Below, piece by piece: positions 24,163-63,717 of a DNA stretch of 64,000 nucleotides. The stretch lies in the NCBI RefSeq assembly GCF_900090285.1, contig NZ_LT607754.1, positions 5,916,001 through 5,980,000 of the forward strand, in the 5' to 3' direction. The position numbers and the translations under genes are program-made. This DNA is from Micromonospora inositola (GTDB taxonomy: Bacteria; Actinomycetota; Actinomycetes; Mycobacteriales; Micromonosporaceae). Positions within the stretch are counted from its first letter, which is position 1. Every line of letters starts with the position of its first letter. The notes beneath the pieces were generated by a model that did not search any database, was not told the DNA's origin, and saw only the letters and a list, made by a program, of their open reading frames with translations.

Positions 24163-25428
24163 CTACGCTCCGATCTCGTCGCCGTCGACCGGGCGGCCCA
24201 TCGGCGCCTCGGTAACCTCGTCCAGCTCGTCCAGCAGGTGCCCCATCCGGTCCCGCTTGGTCCGCAGGTACCGCACGTTCTCCGGGTTCGACCGGATCGG
24301 CAGGCCCTCGCGGCCGCTCACCGTGAGGCCGTAGCCCTCCAGGCCGGCCCGCTTGGCCGGGTTGTTGGTGAGCAGCCGCATCGAGCGGACGCCGAGGTCG
24401 TAGAGGATCTGCGCGCCGGTGCCGTAGTCCCGGGCGTCGGCGGGCAACCCCAGGTCGAGGTTCGCGTCCACGGTGTCCCGGCCCTGGTCCTGGAGCTGGT
24501 ACGCCTGGAGCTTGTGCAGCAGGCCGATCCCGCGCCCCTCGTGCCCGCGTACGTAGAGGACCACCCCGCGCCCCTCCTGCGCCACCCGGGCCAGCGCGGC
24601 CTGCAGCTGAGGGCCGCAGTCGCAGCGCAGCGAGCCGAAGACGTCCCCGGTGAGGCACTCGGAGTGCACCCGGACCAGCACATCCTGCCCGTCGCCGAGG
24701 TCGCCCATCACCAGCGCGACGTGCTCGGCGGAGTCGTAGTCGCTGCGGTAGCCGAGCGCCCGGAACACCCCGTACGGGGTGGGCATCCGCGCGTCCGCGA
24801 CCTGCTCGACCTGCTTCTCGGTCCGCCGCCGGTACGCGATCAGGTCGGCGATGGTGATCAGGGTCAGCCCGTGCTCGGCGCAGAACTTCTCCAGGTCCGG
24901 CAGGCGCATCATGGTGCCGTCGTCGTTGACCAGCTCGCAGAGCACGCCGGCGGGGCGCAGTCCGGCCAGCCGGGTCAGGTCGACGGCCGCCTCGGTGTGC
25001 CCCGGCCGACGCAGCACGCCGCCCTCGCGGGCGCGCAGCGGCACCACGTGCCCGGGGCGGGCCAGGTCGGTGGGGTCGGTGGCGGCGTCGGCGAGCAGCC
25101 GGATGGTGTGCGACCGGTCGGCCGCGGAGATGCCGGTGCTGACCCCCTCCCGGGCGTCCACGGTCACCGTGTACGCGGTCCCCCGCCGGTCCTGGTTGGT
25201 GTGGTGCATCGGCGGCAGGTCCAGCCGGTCGCACTCGCTCTCGGTCAGCGGCACGCAGATGTAGCCCGAGGTGTAGCGGACCATGAACGCGACCAGTTCG
25301 GGCGTGGCCAGCTCGGCCGCGAAGATCAGGTCGCCCTCGTTCTCCCGGTCCTCGTCGTCGACCACGACGACGGGCCGGCCGGCGGCGATGTCCGCCACCG
25401 CCTGCTCGATGCTGCCAAAGGCGCTCAT
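24163..25428 (-). CDS. ribBA: Bifunctional DHBP synthase / GTP cyclohydrolase II
   Basis: A 421-residue fusion giving both riboflavin precursors. Residues 1 to about 205 are Rib[15 protein letters not shown] binds metal and ribulose phosphate, and RPGHVVPL is conserved. From about 210 to the end is RibA, with the zinc cluster [20 protein letters not shown] and the [14 protein letters not shown] motif. The start ATG overlaps the stop of a short junction ORF rather than pnuC directly. Confidence 0.97.
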
Positions 25429-25508
25429 GCCGGCACTCCGCTTCGCTCCGTGCCGTCATGAGGCACCAAGGGACTGGACCTGATGATTCGCTCGCTGCGC
25501 TCGCTCAT
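25425..25508 (-). CDS. 27-codon junction mini-ORF between pnuC and ribBA
   Basis: An ATG at 25508 overlaps the pnuC stop (ATGA) and a TGA at 25425 overlaps the ribBA start (ATGA). The 84-nt frame encodes a 27-residue peptide beginning [14 protein letters not shown] and ending TERSGVPA. The sequence is rich in GAGCG repeats, and its GGAGCGAAGCGGAGTG segment resembles part of the element at 55379-55441 and provides the ribosome site for ribBA. It could be a translated linker, a coupling device or a repeat insert. Expression is unproven. Confidence 0.5.
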
Positions 25509-54196: not shown

Positions 54197-55382
54197 TCGT
54201 GCGCCCCTCGCTGTGGGTCCGGCCTTCGCTGTGCTGCTGGTCGAGGCCGCGGCCCTCGATCAGCTCGGCGAAGCGGTCGAAGAGGTAGTCCGCGTCGTGC
54301 GGGCCGGCCGCCGCCTCCGGGTGGTACTGGACGGTGAAGGCGGGCACGTCCTTCGCCCGCAGCCCCTCGACCACGTTGTCATTGAGGCAGACATGGCTCA
54401 CCTGGACGCCCCCGAACTCGGTCTCGATCACCTGGTCGGGGACGACCGCGCCGTGCCCGGCGCCCGGCACCTGGACGGCGAAGCCGTGGTTGTGGCTGGT
54501 CACCTCGACCTTGCCGGTGGCCCGGTCGAGCACCGGCTGGTTGATGCCGCGGTGGCCGTAGCCGAGCTTGTAGGTGCCGAAGCCGAGCGCCCGGCCGAGG
54601 ATCTGACTGCCGAAGCAGATGCCGAAGAGCGGCACCTGCCGGCGCAGCACCTCTCTGGCGAGGGCCACCGGACCGTGGGCGGTGGCCGGGTCGCCCGGGC
54701 CGGGCGAGAAGAAGACCGCGTCCGCGCCGGTGGCGAGCAGGTCGTCGATGCTCGAACCGGCGGGCAGCACGTGGGTGGTGACCCCACGGGCGGCGAGCCG
54801 GCGCGGCACGTTGCGCTTGATGCCCAGGTCCAGCGCGGCGACCGTGAACCGGTGCGCGCCCTGCGCCTGGACCACGTACGGCTTTTCGGTGGTCACCTCG
54901 GCGGAGAGGTCCGCGCCGACCATCTGCGGCGACTGGCGGACCCGGGCCAGCAGGGCGCGCGGGTCGTCGTCGACGCTGGAGATGCCGACCCGCATGGCGC
55001 CCCGCTCGCGCAGGTGCCGGGTCAGCGCCCGGGTGTCCACGCCGCTGATGCCGACCACGCCCTCGGCGGCGAGCCGGTCCTCCAGCCCGCCGGTGGCCCG
55101 CCAGTTGGAGCCGATCCGGGCCGGGTCGCGGACCACGTACCCGGCGACCCAGATCCGGCCGGACTCGTCGTCCTCACCGTTGACGCCCGTGTTGCCGATG
55201 TGCGGGGCGGTCTGCACCACCACCTGGCGGTGGTAGGACGGGTCGGTCAGGGTCTCCTGGTAGCCGGTCATGCCGGTGTTGAAGACCGCCTCGCCGAAGG
55301 TCTCCCCGACGCTGCCGTACGCCTCGCCGTGGAACGTGCGCCCGTCCTCGAGGACGAGGATCGCCGATCGTCTGCGGGTCAC
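54189..55382 (-). CDS. carA: Carbamoyl-phosphate synthase small subunit
   Basis: Glutamine amidotransferase subunit feeding ammonia to CarB. The 397-residue protein has the CPSase small-chain N-domain ([17 protein letters not shown]) and the class I GATase with [19 protein letters not shown] (catalytic Cys) and [13 protein letters not shown] (His, Glu). The last residues form a tandem [12 protein letters not shown] tail not expected in the family. GTG start overlaps the stop of a junction mini-ORF, whose AAAGG serves as ribosome site. Confidence 0.96.
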
Positions 55383-55441
55383 TGTGCCGGCCTTTCGTTC
55401 GCGACTGCGGGACTCCGCTTCGCTGCATTCCTCGCGCTCAC
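55379..55441 (-). CDS. 20-codon junction mini-ORF between pyrC and carA
   Basis: GTG at 55441 overlaps the pyrC stop (GTGA) and TGA at 55379 overlaps the carA start (GTGA). The 63-nt frame encodes a peptide beginning [17 protein letters not shown]. The DNA is a copy of the element found twice at 57649-57760. Its GAACGAAAGG end lies 8 nt before the carA GTG and gives carA its ribosome site. Whether the peptide matters is unknown. Confidence 0.5.
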
Positions 55442-56715
55442 CGAACTGCCTTTCCGTCCAGGACCGTCGGCTCGCCGCGCAGGAAGGTCGCCACGATGCG
55501 ACCCGGCAGCGTCATGCGGGCGTACGGGGTGTTGCGACTGCGACTGGCCAGCTCCGCCGGTTCGATGGTGCGGCGGGTGGCCGGGTCGACCAGGGTCAGG
55601 TTGGCCGGCACGCCGGGGGCGGGGTCGAGGCCGTGCCCGTCCAGGCCGGCGATCCGGGCCGGGGCCCGGGACATCCGCTCGGCGATCAGGTCCCACTGCG
55701 GGCCGAGCACGTCGAGGGCGATGGAGAGCGCCGTCTCCAGGCCGAGCATGCCCGGCCGGGCGTACGCCCACTCGCACTCCTTGTCCTCCACGGCGTGCGG
55801 GGCGTGGTCGGTGGCGACGATGTCGATCACGCCCTCGGCGAGGGCGGCACGGAGCGCGGCGACGTCGGTGGCGGTGCGCAGCGGGGGGTTCACCTTGTAG
55901 ACCGGGTCGTACGTCTCGGCCTTGGAGTCGGTGAGCAGCAGGTGGTGCGGGGTCACCTCGGCGGTGACCTTCACCCCGCGCGTCTTGGCGTGCCGGAGCA
56001 CCTCGACGCTGCCGGCGGTGGAGACGTGGCAGATGTGCAGGCGGCTGCCGACGTGCTCGGCCAGCAGCACGTCCCGGGCGATGATGGCCTCCTCGGCGAC
56101 CGCCGGCCAGCCGGTCAGCCCGAGCCGGGTGGAGACCTCGCCCTCGTGCATCTGCGCGCCCTCGGTGAGCCGGGGCTCCTCGGCGTGCTGGGCGATCACC
56201 CCGTCGAACGCCTTGACGTATTCGAGGGCCCGGCGCATCAGCTTCGGGTCGGCCACGCAGTGCCCGTCGTCGGAGAAGATCCGCACCCGGGCCGCCGAGT
56301 CGGCCATCGCGCCCAGCTCGGCGAGCTGCCCGCCGGCCAGGCCGACGGTGACCGCGCCGATGGGCTGCACGTCGACCAGCCCGGCCTCCCGGCCGAGCCG
56401 CCAGACCTGCTCGACCACGCCGGCGGTGTCGGCGACCGGGGAGGTGTTGGCCATCGCGCAGACCGCGGTGTAGCCGCCGAGCGCCGCGGCGCGGGAGCCG
56501 GACTCGACGGTCTCGGCGTCCTCCCGGCCCGGCTCGCGCAGGTGGGTGTGCAGGTCGACCAGGCCGGGCAGGGCGACCAGCCCGGTGCCGTCGATCACCG
56601 TGGCGTCCGGCGCGGTCAGGCCCGCGCCGGTCTCGGCCACCACGCCGTCGCGGATCAGCAGGTCGGTCGGCGCGGCGCCGACCACGCTCACGCTCTTGAT
56701 CAGGTACGCGGTCAC
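55438..56715 (-). CDS. pyrC: Dihydroorotase
   Basis: Cyclises carbamoyl aspartate. The 425-residue amidohydrolase has the metal-binding [13 protein letters not shown], the [10 protein letters not shown] segment, [15 protein letters not shown] and the catalytic Asp in [14 protein letters not shown]. It is the class I type often found fused or adjacent to pyrB. A GTG start at 56715 overlaps the pyrB stop. The stop TGA is the first triplet of the junction element. Confidence 0.96.
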
Positions 56716-57638
56716 CGGTTGTTCCCTCCGAGCAGCAGGTAGAGGACGGCCATCCGCACGGAGACCCCGTTGGCGACCTGTTCGACGATGGTGGAGCGGG
56801 GCGAGTCGGCGACCTCGGGCGTGATCTCCATGCCCCGGTTCATCGGGCCGGGGTGCATGACGATCGCGTGCTCGGGCAGCCGGCGCATCCGCGGGCCGTC
56901 CAGGCCGTAGCGGCGGGCGTACTCGCGGGCGGAGGGGAAGTAGGAGTCGTTCATCCGCTCGCGCTGCACCCGCAGCATCATCACCACGTCCGCCCCGGGT
57001 AGCACGGCGTCGAGGTCGTAGGAGACGTCGGTGCCGGGAGCGAGCGCCCCCGAGATGTCGACGGGGATCAGGGTCGGCGGGCCGACCAGGGTGACCTTGG
57101 CGCCGAGGGTGGAGAGCAGCAGCACGTTGGAGCGGGCCACCCGGGAGTGCAGCACGTCGCCGACGATCGCGACGTGCAGGCCGGCGAGCCGCCCCAGCCG
57201 GGAGCGCATCGTGTACGCGTCGAGCAACGCCTGCGTCGGGTGCTCGTGGGTGCCGTCGCCGGCGTTGACCACCGACCCGTCCACCCAGTTGGCCAGCCGG
57301 TGCGGGGCCCCGGAGGCGGGGTGCCGGACGACCACCGCGTCGGCGCCCATCGCCTGGAGGGTGAGCGCGGTGTCCTTGAGACTCTCGCCCTTGGCGACGC
57401 TGGAGCCCTTGGCCGAGAAGTTGATCACGTCGGCGCTGAGCCGCTTGGCGGCCGCCTCGAAGGAGATCCGGGTCCGGGTGGAGTCCTCGTAGAAGAGGTT
57501 CACCACGGTCCGGCCGCGCAGCGCGGGAAGCTTCTTCACCTCGCGGCCGGCGACGGTGGCCATCTCGGCGGCGGTGTCCAGGATCCGGGTGGCGGTGGCC
57601 GCGTCCAGGTCGGCCCCGGACAGCAGGTGGCGGATCAT
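56712..57638 (-). CDS. pyrB: Aspartate carbamoyltransferase catalytic subunit
   Basis: Joins carbamoyl phosphate and aspartate. The 308-residue protein shows [13 protein letters not shown] (phosphate loop), [19 protein letters not shown], the [17 protein letters not shown] motif and HPGPMNRG. The ATG at 57638 (MIRHLLSG) is the true start. An in-frame extension through the upstream repeats would add a spurious [22 protein letters not shown] N-terminus. No pyrI is present. Confidence 0.96.
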
Positions 57639-57760
57639 GAGCGGAGCCGCCTTTCGTTCGCGACTGCGGGGCTCCGCTCCGCTGCACTCCTCGCGCTCAC
57701 AGGAGCCAGCCTTTCGTTCGCGACTGCGGGGCTCCGCTCCGCTGCACTCCTCGCGCTCAC
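57635..57760 (-). CDS. 41-codon tandem junction mini-ORF between pyrR and pyrB
   Basis: GTG at 57760 overlaps the pyrR stop (GTGA) and TGA at 57635 overlaps the pyrB start (ATGA). The 126-nt frame reads two 20-codon units, each [21 protein letters not shown] (second unit starts V). AAAGG from the first unit lies 9 nt before the second unit's GTG, so internal starts are possible. An intact frame and both overlaps survive the duplication. Confidence 0.5.
57649..57760 (-). repeat. Tandem junction repeat, two 52-bp copies with 60-bp period
   Basis: 57651-57700 and 57711-57760 are identical over 50 bp. Related single copies are at 55390-55441 and, with a replaced middle, 60803-60855. On the coding (minus) strand each begins TGAGCGCGAGGA and ends GTCGCGAACGAAAGGC. 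Confidence 0.9.
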
Positions 57761-58338
57761 TGCGCACCCCCGAAGAGCTTGACCTCGTCGGCGCCGTCGG
57801 TCTCGGCGAGGGTGACCTTCACGCTCTCGGCGAGCGCGGTCGGGATGTTCTTGCCGACGTAGTCGGCGCGGATCGGCAGCTCGCGGTGCCCGCGGTCGAC
57901 CAGGACGGCGAGCTGCACCGAGGCGGGGCGGCCGACGTCGCTGAGCGCGTCCAGGGCGGCCCGCACGGTGCGGCCGGAGAAGAGCACGTCGTCGACGAGG
58001 ATGACCCGCTTGCCGTCGATCCCGCCCGTCGGCAGCTCGGTCGGGCCGACCGCGCGGGTGGCGTGCCGGCGCAGGTCGTCGCGGTAGAGGGTGATGTCGA
58101 GCACGCCGACCGGTACGGCCACGTCCTCGAAGGTGCTGATCCGGGCGGCGAGCCGCTTCGCGAGGGGCACGCCCCGGGTGGGGATGCCGAGCAGCACGGT
58201 GTCGGCGGCGCCCTGGGTCTTTTCGAGGATCTGGTGGGCGATGCGGTCGACCACCCGCGACACGTCGGCGGCGGCGAGGATCACCTTCACCGAGGGTTGT
58301 CGCGGCGGCGACGACTGGGCAGCCGATGGGTAGGCCAC
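57757..58338 (-). CDS. pyrR: PyrR bifunctional regulator / uracil phosphoribosyltransferase
   Basis: RNA-binding regulator of pyrimidine genes that responds to UMP/PRPP. The 193-residue PRTase fold contains the PRPP loop [18 protein letters not shown] and the [14 protein letters not shown] segment. The GTG at 58338 lies 6 nt after GGAGGT. A PyrR-type RNA hairpin overlaps this ribosome site, so translational autorepression is likely. First gene of pyrR-pyrB-pyrC-carA-carB. Confidence 0.95.
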
Positions 58339-58340
58339 GG

Positions 58341-58385
58341 CGGACCTCCTTCCCCGCCTCACGGGACGGGTCGTTAAAGGACGTC
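58341..58385 (-). promoter_or_regulatory. PyrR-binding RNA element at the pyrR ribosome site
   Basis: The minus-strand RNA has CCCG-TCCCGTGAGG-CGGG (58352-58370), whose loop carries the CCnGnGAGGC consensus bound by PyrR. It is preceded by CCTTTAACGA and followed directly by the GGAGG of pyrR. This arrangement matches translational control described in mycobacteria rather than the Bacillus attenuator. Confidence 0.75.
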
Positions 58386-58392
58386 TGGGTTG

Positions 58393-58421
58393 CCGGTCCG
58401 GCCGCGAACGGCCCGGACCGG
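58393..58421 (-). promoter_or_regulatory. Stable hairpin in the pyrR leader
   Basis: CCGGTCC pairs with GGACCGG and GGCCG with CGGCC around a UUCG tetraloop, with one bulged G; 12 bp in all. It lies just 5' of the PyrR element. No U tract follows, so it is not an obvious terminator and may insulate the element or block decay. Confidence 0.5.
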
Positions 58422-58541
58422 GGCTTCACGCCACGTTACCAGCGGTCACCGGGCCGATCGCCGCCGGTACTGACCGCAGGATCAGGGTGGCGAAATGGGG
58501 ATAACTCCCCCCGTGGTCCCCAACGGTAATGTCACGACCAC

Positions 58542-58570
58542 TTGACCAGGTGTCGCAAGCCCCGTACCGT
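58542..58570 (+). promoter_or_regulatory. bldD promoter
   Basis: TTGACC (58542-58547) and TACCGT (58565-58570) are 17 bp apart, about 54 bp before the ATG. Expected BldD autoregulatory boxes were looked for; only weak partial matches exist. Confidence 0.6.
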
Positions 58571-58623
58571 CACGCTCCGTAGCGATAGCTGGGAGAACCC
58601 CGAGCAGCACTGGGAGTGTCCGA

Positions 58624-59112
58624 ATGCCCTCTGAATACGCCAAGTCGCTGGGCGCCCGCCTGCGCTCCATCCGCCAGCAGCAGGGCCTGTCCCTGCAGGG
58701 TGTGGAGGAGAAGTCGAACGGGCGGTGGAAGGCCGTGGTGGTCGGCTCGTACGAGCGCGGCGACCGGGCCGTCACCGTGTCCCGCCTGGCGGAGCTGGCC
58801 GACTTCTACCGCGTTCCCGTCTCGGAGCTGCTGCCCGACGGCAGCGGGGTGCGCCACGAGCCGACCAGCAAGATCGTCCTGGACCTGGAGCGGCTCTACG
58901 ACGAGGCCTCCGAGGACCTCGCCTACGTCGCCCGGTACGCCCGTGCCATCCAGCAGCAGCGCGGTGACTACAACGGCCGGGTGCTCTCCATCCGCGCCGA
59001 CGACCTGCGCGCTCTCGCCATCGTCTACGACGCCTCGCCGTCGGGCCTGATCGAGCGGCTCACCGAGCACGGTGTGCTGGTCGCCGACCCGCGGGCGTTC
59101 TTCGCGTCCTGA
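58624..59112 (+). CDS. bldD: BldD, c-di-GMP-responsive developmental repressor
   Basis: Master repressor of sporulation genes. The 162-residue protein has an N-terminal XRE helix-turn-helix (YAKSLGARLRSIRQQQGLSL to about residue 70) and a C-terminal domain with the c-di-GMP signature RGD(113-115)-X8-RADD(124-127), the RxD-X8-RxxD motif through which tetrameric c-di-GMP dimerises BldD. It is divergent from pyrR. A REC-GGDEF gene lies at 28298 in the same window. Confidence 0.96.
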   Translation: MPSEYAKSLGARLRSIRQQQGLSLQGVEEKSNGRWKAVVVGSYERGDRAVTVSRLAELADFYRVPVSELLPDGSGVRHEPTSKIVLDLERLYDEASEDLAYVARYARAIQQQRGDYNGRVLSIRADDLRALAIVYDASPSGLIERLTEHGVLVADPRAFFAS

Positions 59113-59128
59113 CCTGCTCTCGTAGGAG

Positions 59129-59160
59129 AAAGGGCCCGTGCCACCCGGCACGGGCCCTTT
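59129..59160. terminator. Bidirectional terminator between bldD and nusB
   Basis: A perfect 14-bp stem (59129-59142 with 59147-59160) with a 4-nt loop, A3 on one side and T3 on the other, separates convergent bldD and nusB. Confidence 0.85.
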
Positions 59161-59186
59161 CGTCGTACGGGTGCGGCGGCCGCCGC

Positions 59187-59621
59187 TCAGCGGGTGGCGT
59201 ACTCGGCGATCCGGCCGAGCATCCCGTTGAGGAAGCGCGGCGAGTCGTCGGTCGACATCTGCCGGGCCAGCTCGACGGCCTCACTGATCGCCACCGCGTC
59301 GTCGATGTCGTCGACGTAGAGCAGCTCGTAGACGGCGATCCGGGCGAGGTTGCGGTCGACCACGGGCATCCGGTCGAGCGTCCAGCCCTCGGCGTAGCTG
59401 GCGATCAGCTCGTCGATCCGGTCGAGGTGCGCGGCGACGCCCTCGACCAGGCTGACCGCGTAGCCCAGGTGCTCCGGGCGGGGCTTCTCGATCCGCTCGA
59501 TGTAGCCGGCGAGCACCTCGACCGGGGGCCGGTCCCGCAGGTCGGCCTCGAAGAGCACGTCCAGCGCCCGCTTGCGCGCCTTGCGGCGCGCCGGCATCTG
59601 CTGCTTGGGACCCTCGGCCAT
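59187..59621 (-). CDS. nusB: Transcription antitermination factor NusB
   Basis: Part of the rRNA antitermination complex with NusE/S10. The 144-residue helical protein contains ARKRALDVLFEADLR, the YAEGWTLDRMPVVDRNLARI segment and the C-terminal DDAVAISEAVELARQMSTDD. It overlaps the efp stop by one base and terminates the shikimate/efp transcript. Confidence 0.96.
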   Translation of the reverse strand: MAEGPKQQMPARRKARKRALDVLFEADLRDRPPVEVLAGYIERIEKPRPEHLGYAVSLVEGVAAHLDRIDELIASYAEGWTLDRMPVVDRNLARIAVYELLYVDDIDDAVAISEAVELARQMSTDDSPRFLNGMLGRIAEYATR

Positions 59622-60178
59622 CAGGCGCGGCCGAGGTAACGGCCGTCGCGGGTGTCGACCTTGATCTTCTCGCCGGTGGTGATGAAGAGCGGCACCGGCA
59701 CGGTCGCGCCGGTCTCGACGGTGGCCGGCTTGTTGCCGCCGGTCGACCGGTCGCCCTGCAGACCCGGCTCGGTGTAGGTGACCTCGAGCACGACGGAGGT
59801 CGGCAGCTCGATGTAGAGCGGGACGCTCTCGTGCGTGGCGACGGTCGCCTCGGCCTCCGGCAGGAGGTAGTTGGCCGCCTCGCCGACGGTGCCGCCGGGG
59901 ACGGTGATCTGGTCGAACGTCTCCAGATCCATGAAGACGTAGTCCTCGCCGTCGGCGTACAGGTACTGCATGGTGCGCTTGTCGACGGTGGCGGTCTCGA
60001 CCTTGGTGCCCGCGTTGAAGGTCTTGTCGACGACCTTGCCGGACAGCACGTTCTTCAGCGTGGTGCGCACGAAGGCACCACCCTTACCGGGCTTGACGTG
60101 CTGGAACTCGACGACGGCCCAGAGTTCCCCGTCGAGGTTGAGTACGAGGCCGTTCTTGAGCTCGTTGGTGGTGGCCAT
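59621..60178 (-). CDS. efp: Elongation factor P
   Basis: Relieves ribosome stalling at polyproline. The 185-residue protein has three beta-barrel domains; the N-terminal loop is [12 protein letters not shown] with the lysine at about residue 32 facing the peptidyl-transferase centre. No EpmABC-type modification genes are seen here. A -10-like TAGACT (minus strand) near 60217-60222 suggests its own promoter between aroQ and efp. Confidence 0.97.
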
Positions 60179-60355
60179 TTCCTGCCTTGATCATCAATTG
60201 GCGGACAGACCTGGAAAGTCTACTAGCTGTGTCGAACCGACAGCGCCGCCGCTGTCCCGCCCGACCCGAGGGTCACCCCGGGTGCCGGCGTCGATCACCC
60301 GCCGGTCCCACGGCGCGCCCAGCCGGGACGCCACGGAAGGTCACCGCGACCGGGT

Positions 60356-60792
60356 TCAGTCGGTGGCCGCCAGCCGGGCGGCGACGTGCCGCAGGGCGAG
60401 GTGGTAGCCGTCCACGCCCAGCCCGCAGATCACCCCGGTGGCCACCGCGGAGACCACCGAGTGGTGCCGGAACTCCTCGCGGGCGTGGATGTTGGAGATG
60501 TGCACCTCCACCAGCGGACCCCGCAGCATCGCGCAGGCGTCCCGCACGGCGATCGAGTAGTGCGACCAGGCGGCGGGATTGAGCACCACGGGCGCGCCCT
60601 CGTCGGCCGCCGCGTGCAGCCACCCGAGCAGCTCGTGCTCGGCGTCGGTCTGCCGGACCACCACGTCCAGGCCCAGCTCCCGGCCGACGTCCACACACAT
60701 GGTGACCAGGTCGGCGTAGCTGGTCACCCCGTAGACCTCGACCTGCCGCGTGCCGAGCCGACCCAGGTTCGGGCCGTTGAGCACGTACACCC

Positions 60793-60796
<4 letters not shown>
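60356..60796 (-). CDS. aroQ: 3-dehydroquinate dehydratase, type II
   Basis: Third shikimate step. The 146-residue dodecameric type II enzyme has [20 protein letters not shown] with the catalytic Tyr, [15 protein letters not shown] and [15 protein letters not shown] with the catalytic His. The GTG at 60796 overlaps the stop of the junction mini-ORF; GAAGGTGG upstream is its ribosome site. About 180 bp separate it from efp, with no further gene. Confidence 0.96.

Positions 60797-63717
<2,921 letters not shown>

Follow-up and report, generated by a model that had tools for sequence, protein, structure and literature searches.

MIRUs are said to lie at DTGA sites, as Supply et al. reportedly found in 1997. 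According to the review PMC12548453, which cites that study, they appear to be mobile, insert at start codons and carry an internal ORF that is coupled at -4 nt. The MIRU units of senX3-regX3, several of which occur together, measure 77 and 53 bp (PMC4213456). Rickettsia palindromic elements and other ORF-bearing MITEs are about 150 bp long, lie inside ORFs and can form in-frame fusions with host proteins (PMC10969869).

We describe here a family of repeats, family 1, which occurs in the window (the whole 64,000-nt stretch of DNA that was analysed) and elsewhere in the genome. Each unit has a core of ~47 nt and a tail of ~12 nt, the unit period is 59-62 nt, and each unit sits where translation of a gene begins, oriented like that gene. 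As far as the sources above describe them, MIRUs resemble family 1, which is also short, dispersed, tandem in places and mobile-looking, with a position at start codons and a coupled internal ORF. On the other hand, the period of family 1, and that of a second family (about 80 nt), differ from the 77 and 53 bp given in PMC4213456, family 1 is found in Micromonosporaceae and MIRU in mycobacteria, and in-frame fusion is a second outcome in family 1. Because unit length and lineage differ, we use the label MIRU-like rather than MIRU, the likeness meant here being one of mode of working. The kind of element already has a precedent in MIRU, and the first-pass annotation, which knew of no description, has to be corrected in view of the start-codon insertion with -4 coupling set out in PMC12548453. 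Searches of the open-access literature turned up no account of such repeats in Micromonosporaceae, and within that literature they are probably undescribed in this family. Like the Rickettsia palindromic elements, family 1 can fuse in frame with host proteins, but it differs in being placed at the start codon and in that most copies are coupled, not fused.

Units in the window and their placement at gene starts

The first-pass annotation had proposed a 63-nt frame bridging pyrC and carA with GTGA overlaps on both sides, and this was confirmed. On the minus strand the pyrC frame is closed by the TGA at 55440-55438 and carA is opened by the GTG at 55382-55380, and the open frame at 55441-55379 shares one GTGA with the pyrC stop and another with the carA start (Table 1). 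Recurrence at three other junctions had also been claimed, which is correct if the cassette at 25508-25425 is counted, whereas family 1 itself occupies two, pyrR/pyrB and aroB/aroQ, with three further units. The sequence GTCGCGAACGAAAGG is present in the window as three exact copies (55391, 57650, 57710) and one copy with two mismatches (60803). With up to three mismatches there were five matches where 2.73 would be expected, a total also attained by 19 of 100 shuffles, so the strength of GTCGCGAACGAAAGG lies in its exact copies and not in the count at up to three mismatches. Of the 810 NTGA sites in the window, just those of the two single-unit junctions (55441 and 60855) both close an upstream coding frame and are followed, at 55-65 nt, by a coding NTGA start. 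Rfam gave no match up to E=1 within 55000-61500.

Table 1. Position and make-up of the repeat units in the window
Feature	Position	Strand	Description
Family-1 unit at pyrC/carA	55379..55441	-	5' GTGA (55441-55438), core, tail and carA GTGA (55382-55379); 63-nt ORF
GAAAGG in tail, Shine-Dalgarno-like	55391..55396	-	8 nt before carA GTG; from sequence and tail consensus
Two tandem family-1 units at pyrR/pyrB, start-to-start 60 nt	57635..57760	-	One 126-nt ORF closing on pyrB ATGA
Family-1 unit at aroB/aroQ	60793..60855	-	63-nt ORF, GTGA at both ends
Second-family cassette	25425..25508	-	84-nt ORF, ATGA at both ends

A sequence-only model of the family-1 core (R1, hits accepted at E up to 0.01) yielded 58 hits in the 6.7-Mb genome of the organism itself, corresponding to 43 loci once arrays were merged. 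In the genus, R1 hits were found in all 37 genomes examined, with at least 14 to 77 in each, and family-wide in at least 60 of 121 genomes and at least 25 of 44 genera; the genus, order and family searches were run with strict filters, with no more than 100 or 50 candidates scored in each genome, and their counts are lower bounds. Among the scored candidates, none of 24 genomes from 15 other families of the order had a hit, a set in which mycobacteria may or may not be included. Family 1 is multi-copy, dispersed, tandem in places, and present or absent between species, the longest tandem array having six units. This array (L241, G012:C1:4072789-4074336) has a period of 60 and forms a single 363-nt ORF that closes on the downstream start.

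Placement was assessed in the 34 of the 43 own loci that have an intact 5' NTGA, the nine loci lacking it being left out. In every one of these 34, a coding start of the form NTGA lies in the same direction no more than 45 nt from the core, compared with 3/34 on the opposite strand and 10.8% of random window positions (n=6000). An upstream coding frame ends at the 5' TGA of the element in 26/34 loci, and the pattern with both upstream stop and downstream start is likewise found at 26/34, versus 1/6000 random positions. The expectation of dispersed copies at codirectional gene junctions was thereby borne out, and that of xTGA at both ends in part, since 26 own loci have it but the upstream gene need not overlap. 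Judged from translations, the host genes look unrelated (pdxS/pdxT-like, nadB/nadC-like, an ABC transporter, and others).

Unit length, reading frame and orthologous junctions

Units of 63 nt share the tail consensus GGAGGTGGCNCN, which reads TCGCGAAC-GGAGGTGGC-N-C-N followed by the start codon. Since a Shine-Dalgarno-like sequence is present in this consensus it is part of the element, and the 3' end of the element would, as the first-pass annotation held, supply the ribosome site of the downstream gene.

For the frame analysis, 60 loci of other genomes of the genus were fetched, chosen from the best-scoring hits and including some sites common to several species. Of these, 59 were usable (L235 was excluded since no start passed the test), giving 93 with the 34 own loci, and five loci preceded by another copy were left out (a filter caught three, and L214 and L230 were spotted by eye), leaving 88; a de-duplicated set comprises 68 loci, 64 of them with an NTGA start. 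The 5' tetranucleotide is GTGA in 87/88 loci, and the called 3' start is GTGA in 62, ATGA in 19, TTGA in one and another sequence in six. Starts were called at whichever in-frame candidate came first, and the non-NTGA starts at own loci 1802774 and 6052371 and at L216 are in-frame calls upstream of a likelier start; such mis-calls leave the mod-3 class unchanged. The idea of a required A after fused starts was dropped, the first-candidate habit of the caller explaining some of the non-NTGA starts.

The length of the last unit is a multiple of three in 68 loci, 3n+1 in 19 and 3n+2 in one. When units of length 63 were removed the classes were 23:19:1, with P=6e-7 for so few 3n+2 units if one third were expected, and additional de-duplication gave 18:14:1 (P=2.7e-5). 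The ORF of the last unit stops exactly on the downstream start in 67/88 loci, is fused in frame with the downstream gene in 18/88, and does neither in 3/88, namely L216, which may be a start mis-call, own locus 2047972, a degenerate copy, and own locus 3368207, where the stop falls 7 nt short. The 3n length suggested from the window thus applies to 68 of the 88 units, but not to the 19 units of 3n+1, of which 18 fuse in frame downstream. Within arrays, periods of 59 or 62 give chains of coupled ORFs and a period of 60 gives in-frame read-through. Two arrays with a frame-shifting period of 61 (L206 and L237) do not follow this scheme in a simple way; closure is nevertheless exact in L237, though not in L206.

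Orthologous junctions were compared in 20 relatives, with classes read by eye and the pyrR/pyrB frames rechecked. At pyrC/carA, eight relatives are empty, seven have family 1 and five have a cousin or shortened type; unit number at this junction differs between species from one to three. The empty forms are a single NTGA overlap in L100, L104, L106 and L110, TAATG in L105, L108 and L114, and TAA-ATG in L103. At pyrR/pyrB eleven relatives are empty, all with a single ATGA overlap, six have family 1 and three a shortened type, and at aroB/aroQ nine have a plain 4-nt overlap, one (L118) two tandem units, and ten other short spacers. The nearest relative, L100, whose carA is 97% identical, is empty at all three junctions. 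The ABC-transporter junction is empty in L172 and L175, and nadB/nadC is empty in M. sicca (L121). The two best NadC relatives come from M. chaiyaphumensis and M. sicca, which makes the host probably a Micromonospora. A single NTGA overlap at empty sites, as anticipated by the first-pass annotation, was therefore seen in all 11 empty pyrR/pyrB junctions and in four of the eight empty pyrC/carA junctions, and none of the three outcomes it had named as contrary (copies off junctions, random length modulo three, empty sites without a single overlap) was found.

Among relatives with TAATG before carA, the filled ones (L107, L111) end pyrC with TGA and the empty ones with TAA, and the 5' GTGA therefore comes with the element. 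Together with the nearly invariant 5' GTGA, found next to a variable 3' start, this contradicts the proposal of a duplicated xTGA overlap: the 5' GTGA is the element's own. A cousin type with the outer arms GTGATYCGAGCGAGG...CAGTCCGGATCG occupies pyrC/carA in L102, L112, L116 and L119, in one to three units, and its change of arms leaves pairing possible.

The second family has a peptide that begins MSERSER... and is distinct from family 1 in sequence, with the same NTGA-to-NTGA geometry. As the peptides of the two families differ, the common feature is the geometry and not the peptide. With up to two mismatches, TGAGCGAGCGNAGCGAGCGAA has 13 matches in the genome (L257-L269), compared with three for a reversed control pattern. 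In eight of the 13 the ORF is exactly 84 nt long and closes in an NTGA overlap; a coding frame follows in seven cases and another unit in the eighth. The remaining matches comprise a 39-nt ORF ending in TTGA, three long ORFs (321, 801 and 834 nt) and a chimera. In this chimera (L267, own 4565470) a second-family start is joined to a family-1 core, and the resulting 96-nt ORF terminates at the GTGA with which another family-1 unit opens. At the junction of own locus 976410, inserts resembling the second family are present in L154 and L140, with near-identical sequence around ATGAG on either side; in L154 this sequence is 18 nt, longer than any clear family-1 duplication.

A MIRU-like repeat and the alternatives

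We consider family 1 to be a small non-autonomous mobile repeat that acts like MIRU, to which it is likened by published description, with a probability of about 0.8. Start-codon insertion with a coupled internal ORF was found (exact closure in 67/88 loci, NTGA starts in 34/34 own loci), as was the combination of multiple, dispersed, partly tandem copies with presence and absence at orthologous sites; the latter also suggests mobility. The sequence shows that the 5' GTGA of the element opens the small ORF and, where genes overlapped, gives the upstream gene its stop, that the tail puts a Shine-Dalgarno-like sequence before the downstream start, and that the small ORF either stops exactly on that start or continues as part of the downstream frame. 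On finishing the upstream gene, ribosomes would then read through the small ORF and begin again at the next start codon, and because translation would be relayed in this way the insertion would be tolerated, with selection removing units whose length (3n+2) shifts the ORF out of frame. We infer the use of this stop/start relay by ribosomes from frame conservation. In all likelihood the repeat is carried as a selfish passenger. Counting against this reading are the three loci that follow neither frame rule, the two arrays of period 61, the nine own loci lacking the 5' NTGA, the short and variable flank duplication, and the finding of no transposase or parent transposon around the three Y1 genes described below.

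A rival account, conceivable though doubtful, is that the repeat spreads with no transposase involved, when Shine-Dalgarno/GTGA stretches in the element and in its target undergo template switching or gene conversion with one another. The ends of the element resemble gene starts, and the chimera of both families also speaks for such exchange. The flanks before the 5' GTGA and before the 3' start share an identical run of at least 3 nt in 14/64 loci versus 3.1 expected from permuted pairs, and of at least 8 nt in 3/64 versus 0.05, position -1 being the strongest and most runs being 1-3 nt, which suggests a short target duplication of variable length; against this route, the variability may also be decay of a fixed duplication. 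A further objection is the occurrence in at least 25 of 44 genera and at numerous unrelated places, which would require the element to move efficiently. A target duplication of 10-14 nt over ribosome site and start, considered from own locus 3816114 versus the empty L172 and L175, was weakened because the tail consensus puts the ribosome site in the element and only 3/64 loci reach 8 nt.

An adaptive coupling cassette, in which the ribosome site, an RNA structure or the number of units would tune or uncouple downstream expression, is an unlikely alternative to the passenger reading. The Shine-Dalgarno-like tail, the variation between one and three units at pyrC/carA, and the location in pyr and aro operons would fit it. 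In contrast, distribution is patchy (empty in 8/20 relatives at pyrC/carA and 11/20 at pyrR/pyrB, filled in 1/20 at aroB/aroQ), host genes look unrelated, and RNA folds of five copies were no better than shuffles.

REP sequences with RAYT transposases, RAYT being a stand-alone Y1 transposase, are short imperfect palindromes in dozens of extragenic copies. Family 1 shares the short imperfect palindrome, here the inner part of the core, and the dozens of copies, but lies at gene starts and has a coding frame. A MITE would have terminal inverted repeats and a target-site duplication of fixed length; what is seen in family 1 is an imperfect inner palindrome and a flank identity above chance but variable in length. 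The genome has three PF01797 matches, among which no stand-alone RAYT was found; no parent transposon was found in the neighbourhoods of these Y1 genes, and IS605 ends as parent were rejected, no element motif being near them. A conserved hairpin was likewise rejected, with z between -1.99 and 0.93 in ten folds, of which only L116 comes near. Descent from a REP-like or IS200/IS605 element whose hairpin is acted on by a Y1 transposase, to which the three Y1 genes, the palindromic core and the different outer arms of the cousin type that could also pair (GATCCG/CGGATC versus CGCGA/TCGCG, by eye) would lend themselves, is still less likely, given that each Y1 gene adjoins a TnpB-looking frame (by eye) as in ordinary IS605, that 0/4 element motifs occur in the loci fetched around them, and that the ten folds have the z values just given.

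The reading of family 1 as a MIRU-like mobile repeat may tentatively be widened to an actinobacterial class of transposase-less start-codon cassettes, in which several unrelated families, among them MIRU, would share a single logic of insertion. The cassette's own GTGA and ribosome site would re-create the stop/start relay at any gene start, and target choice would depend on the start region itself rather than on a sequence-specific transposase. The findings suggest that MIRU-like start-codon insertion reaches beyond mycobacteria. Many natural pairs of empty and filled junctions are on offer for the study of translational coupling, and tandem arrays such as that of L241 could serve strain typing. 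Copies fused in frame are likely annotated as N-terminal extensions, and the near-absence of 3n+2 units is evolutionary evidence for translation of the small ORFs.
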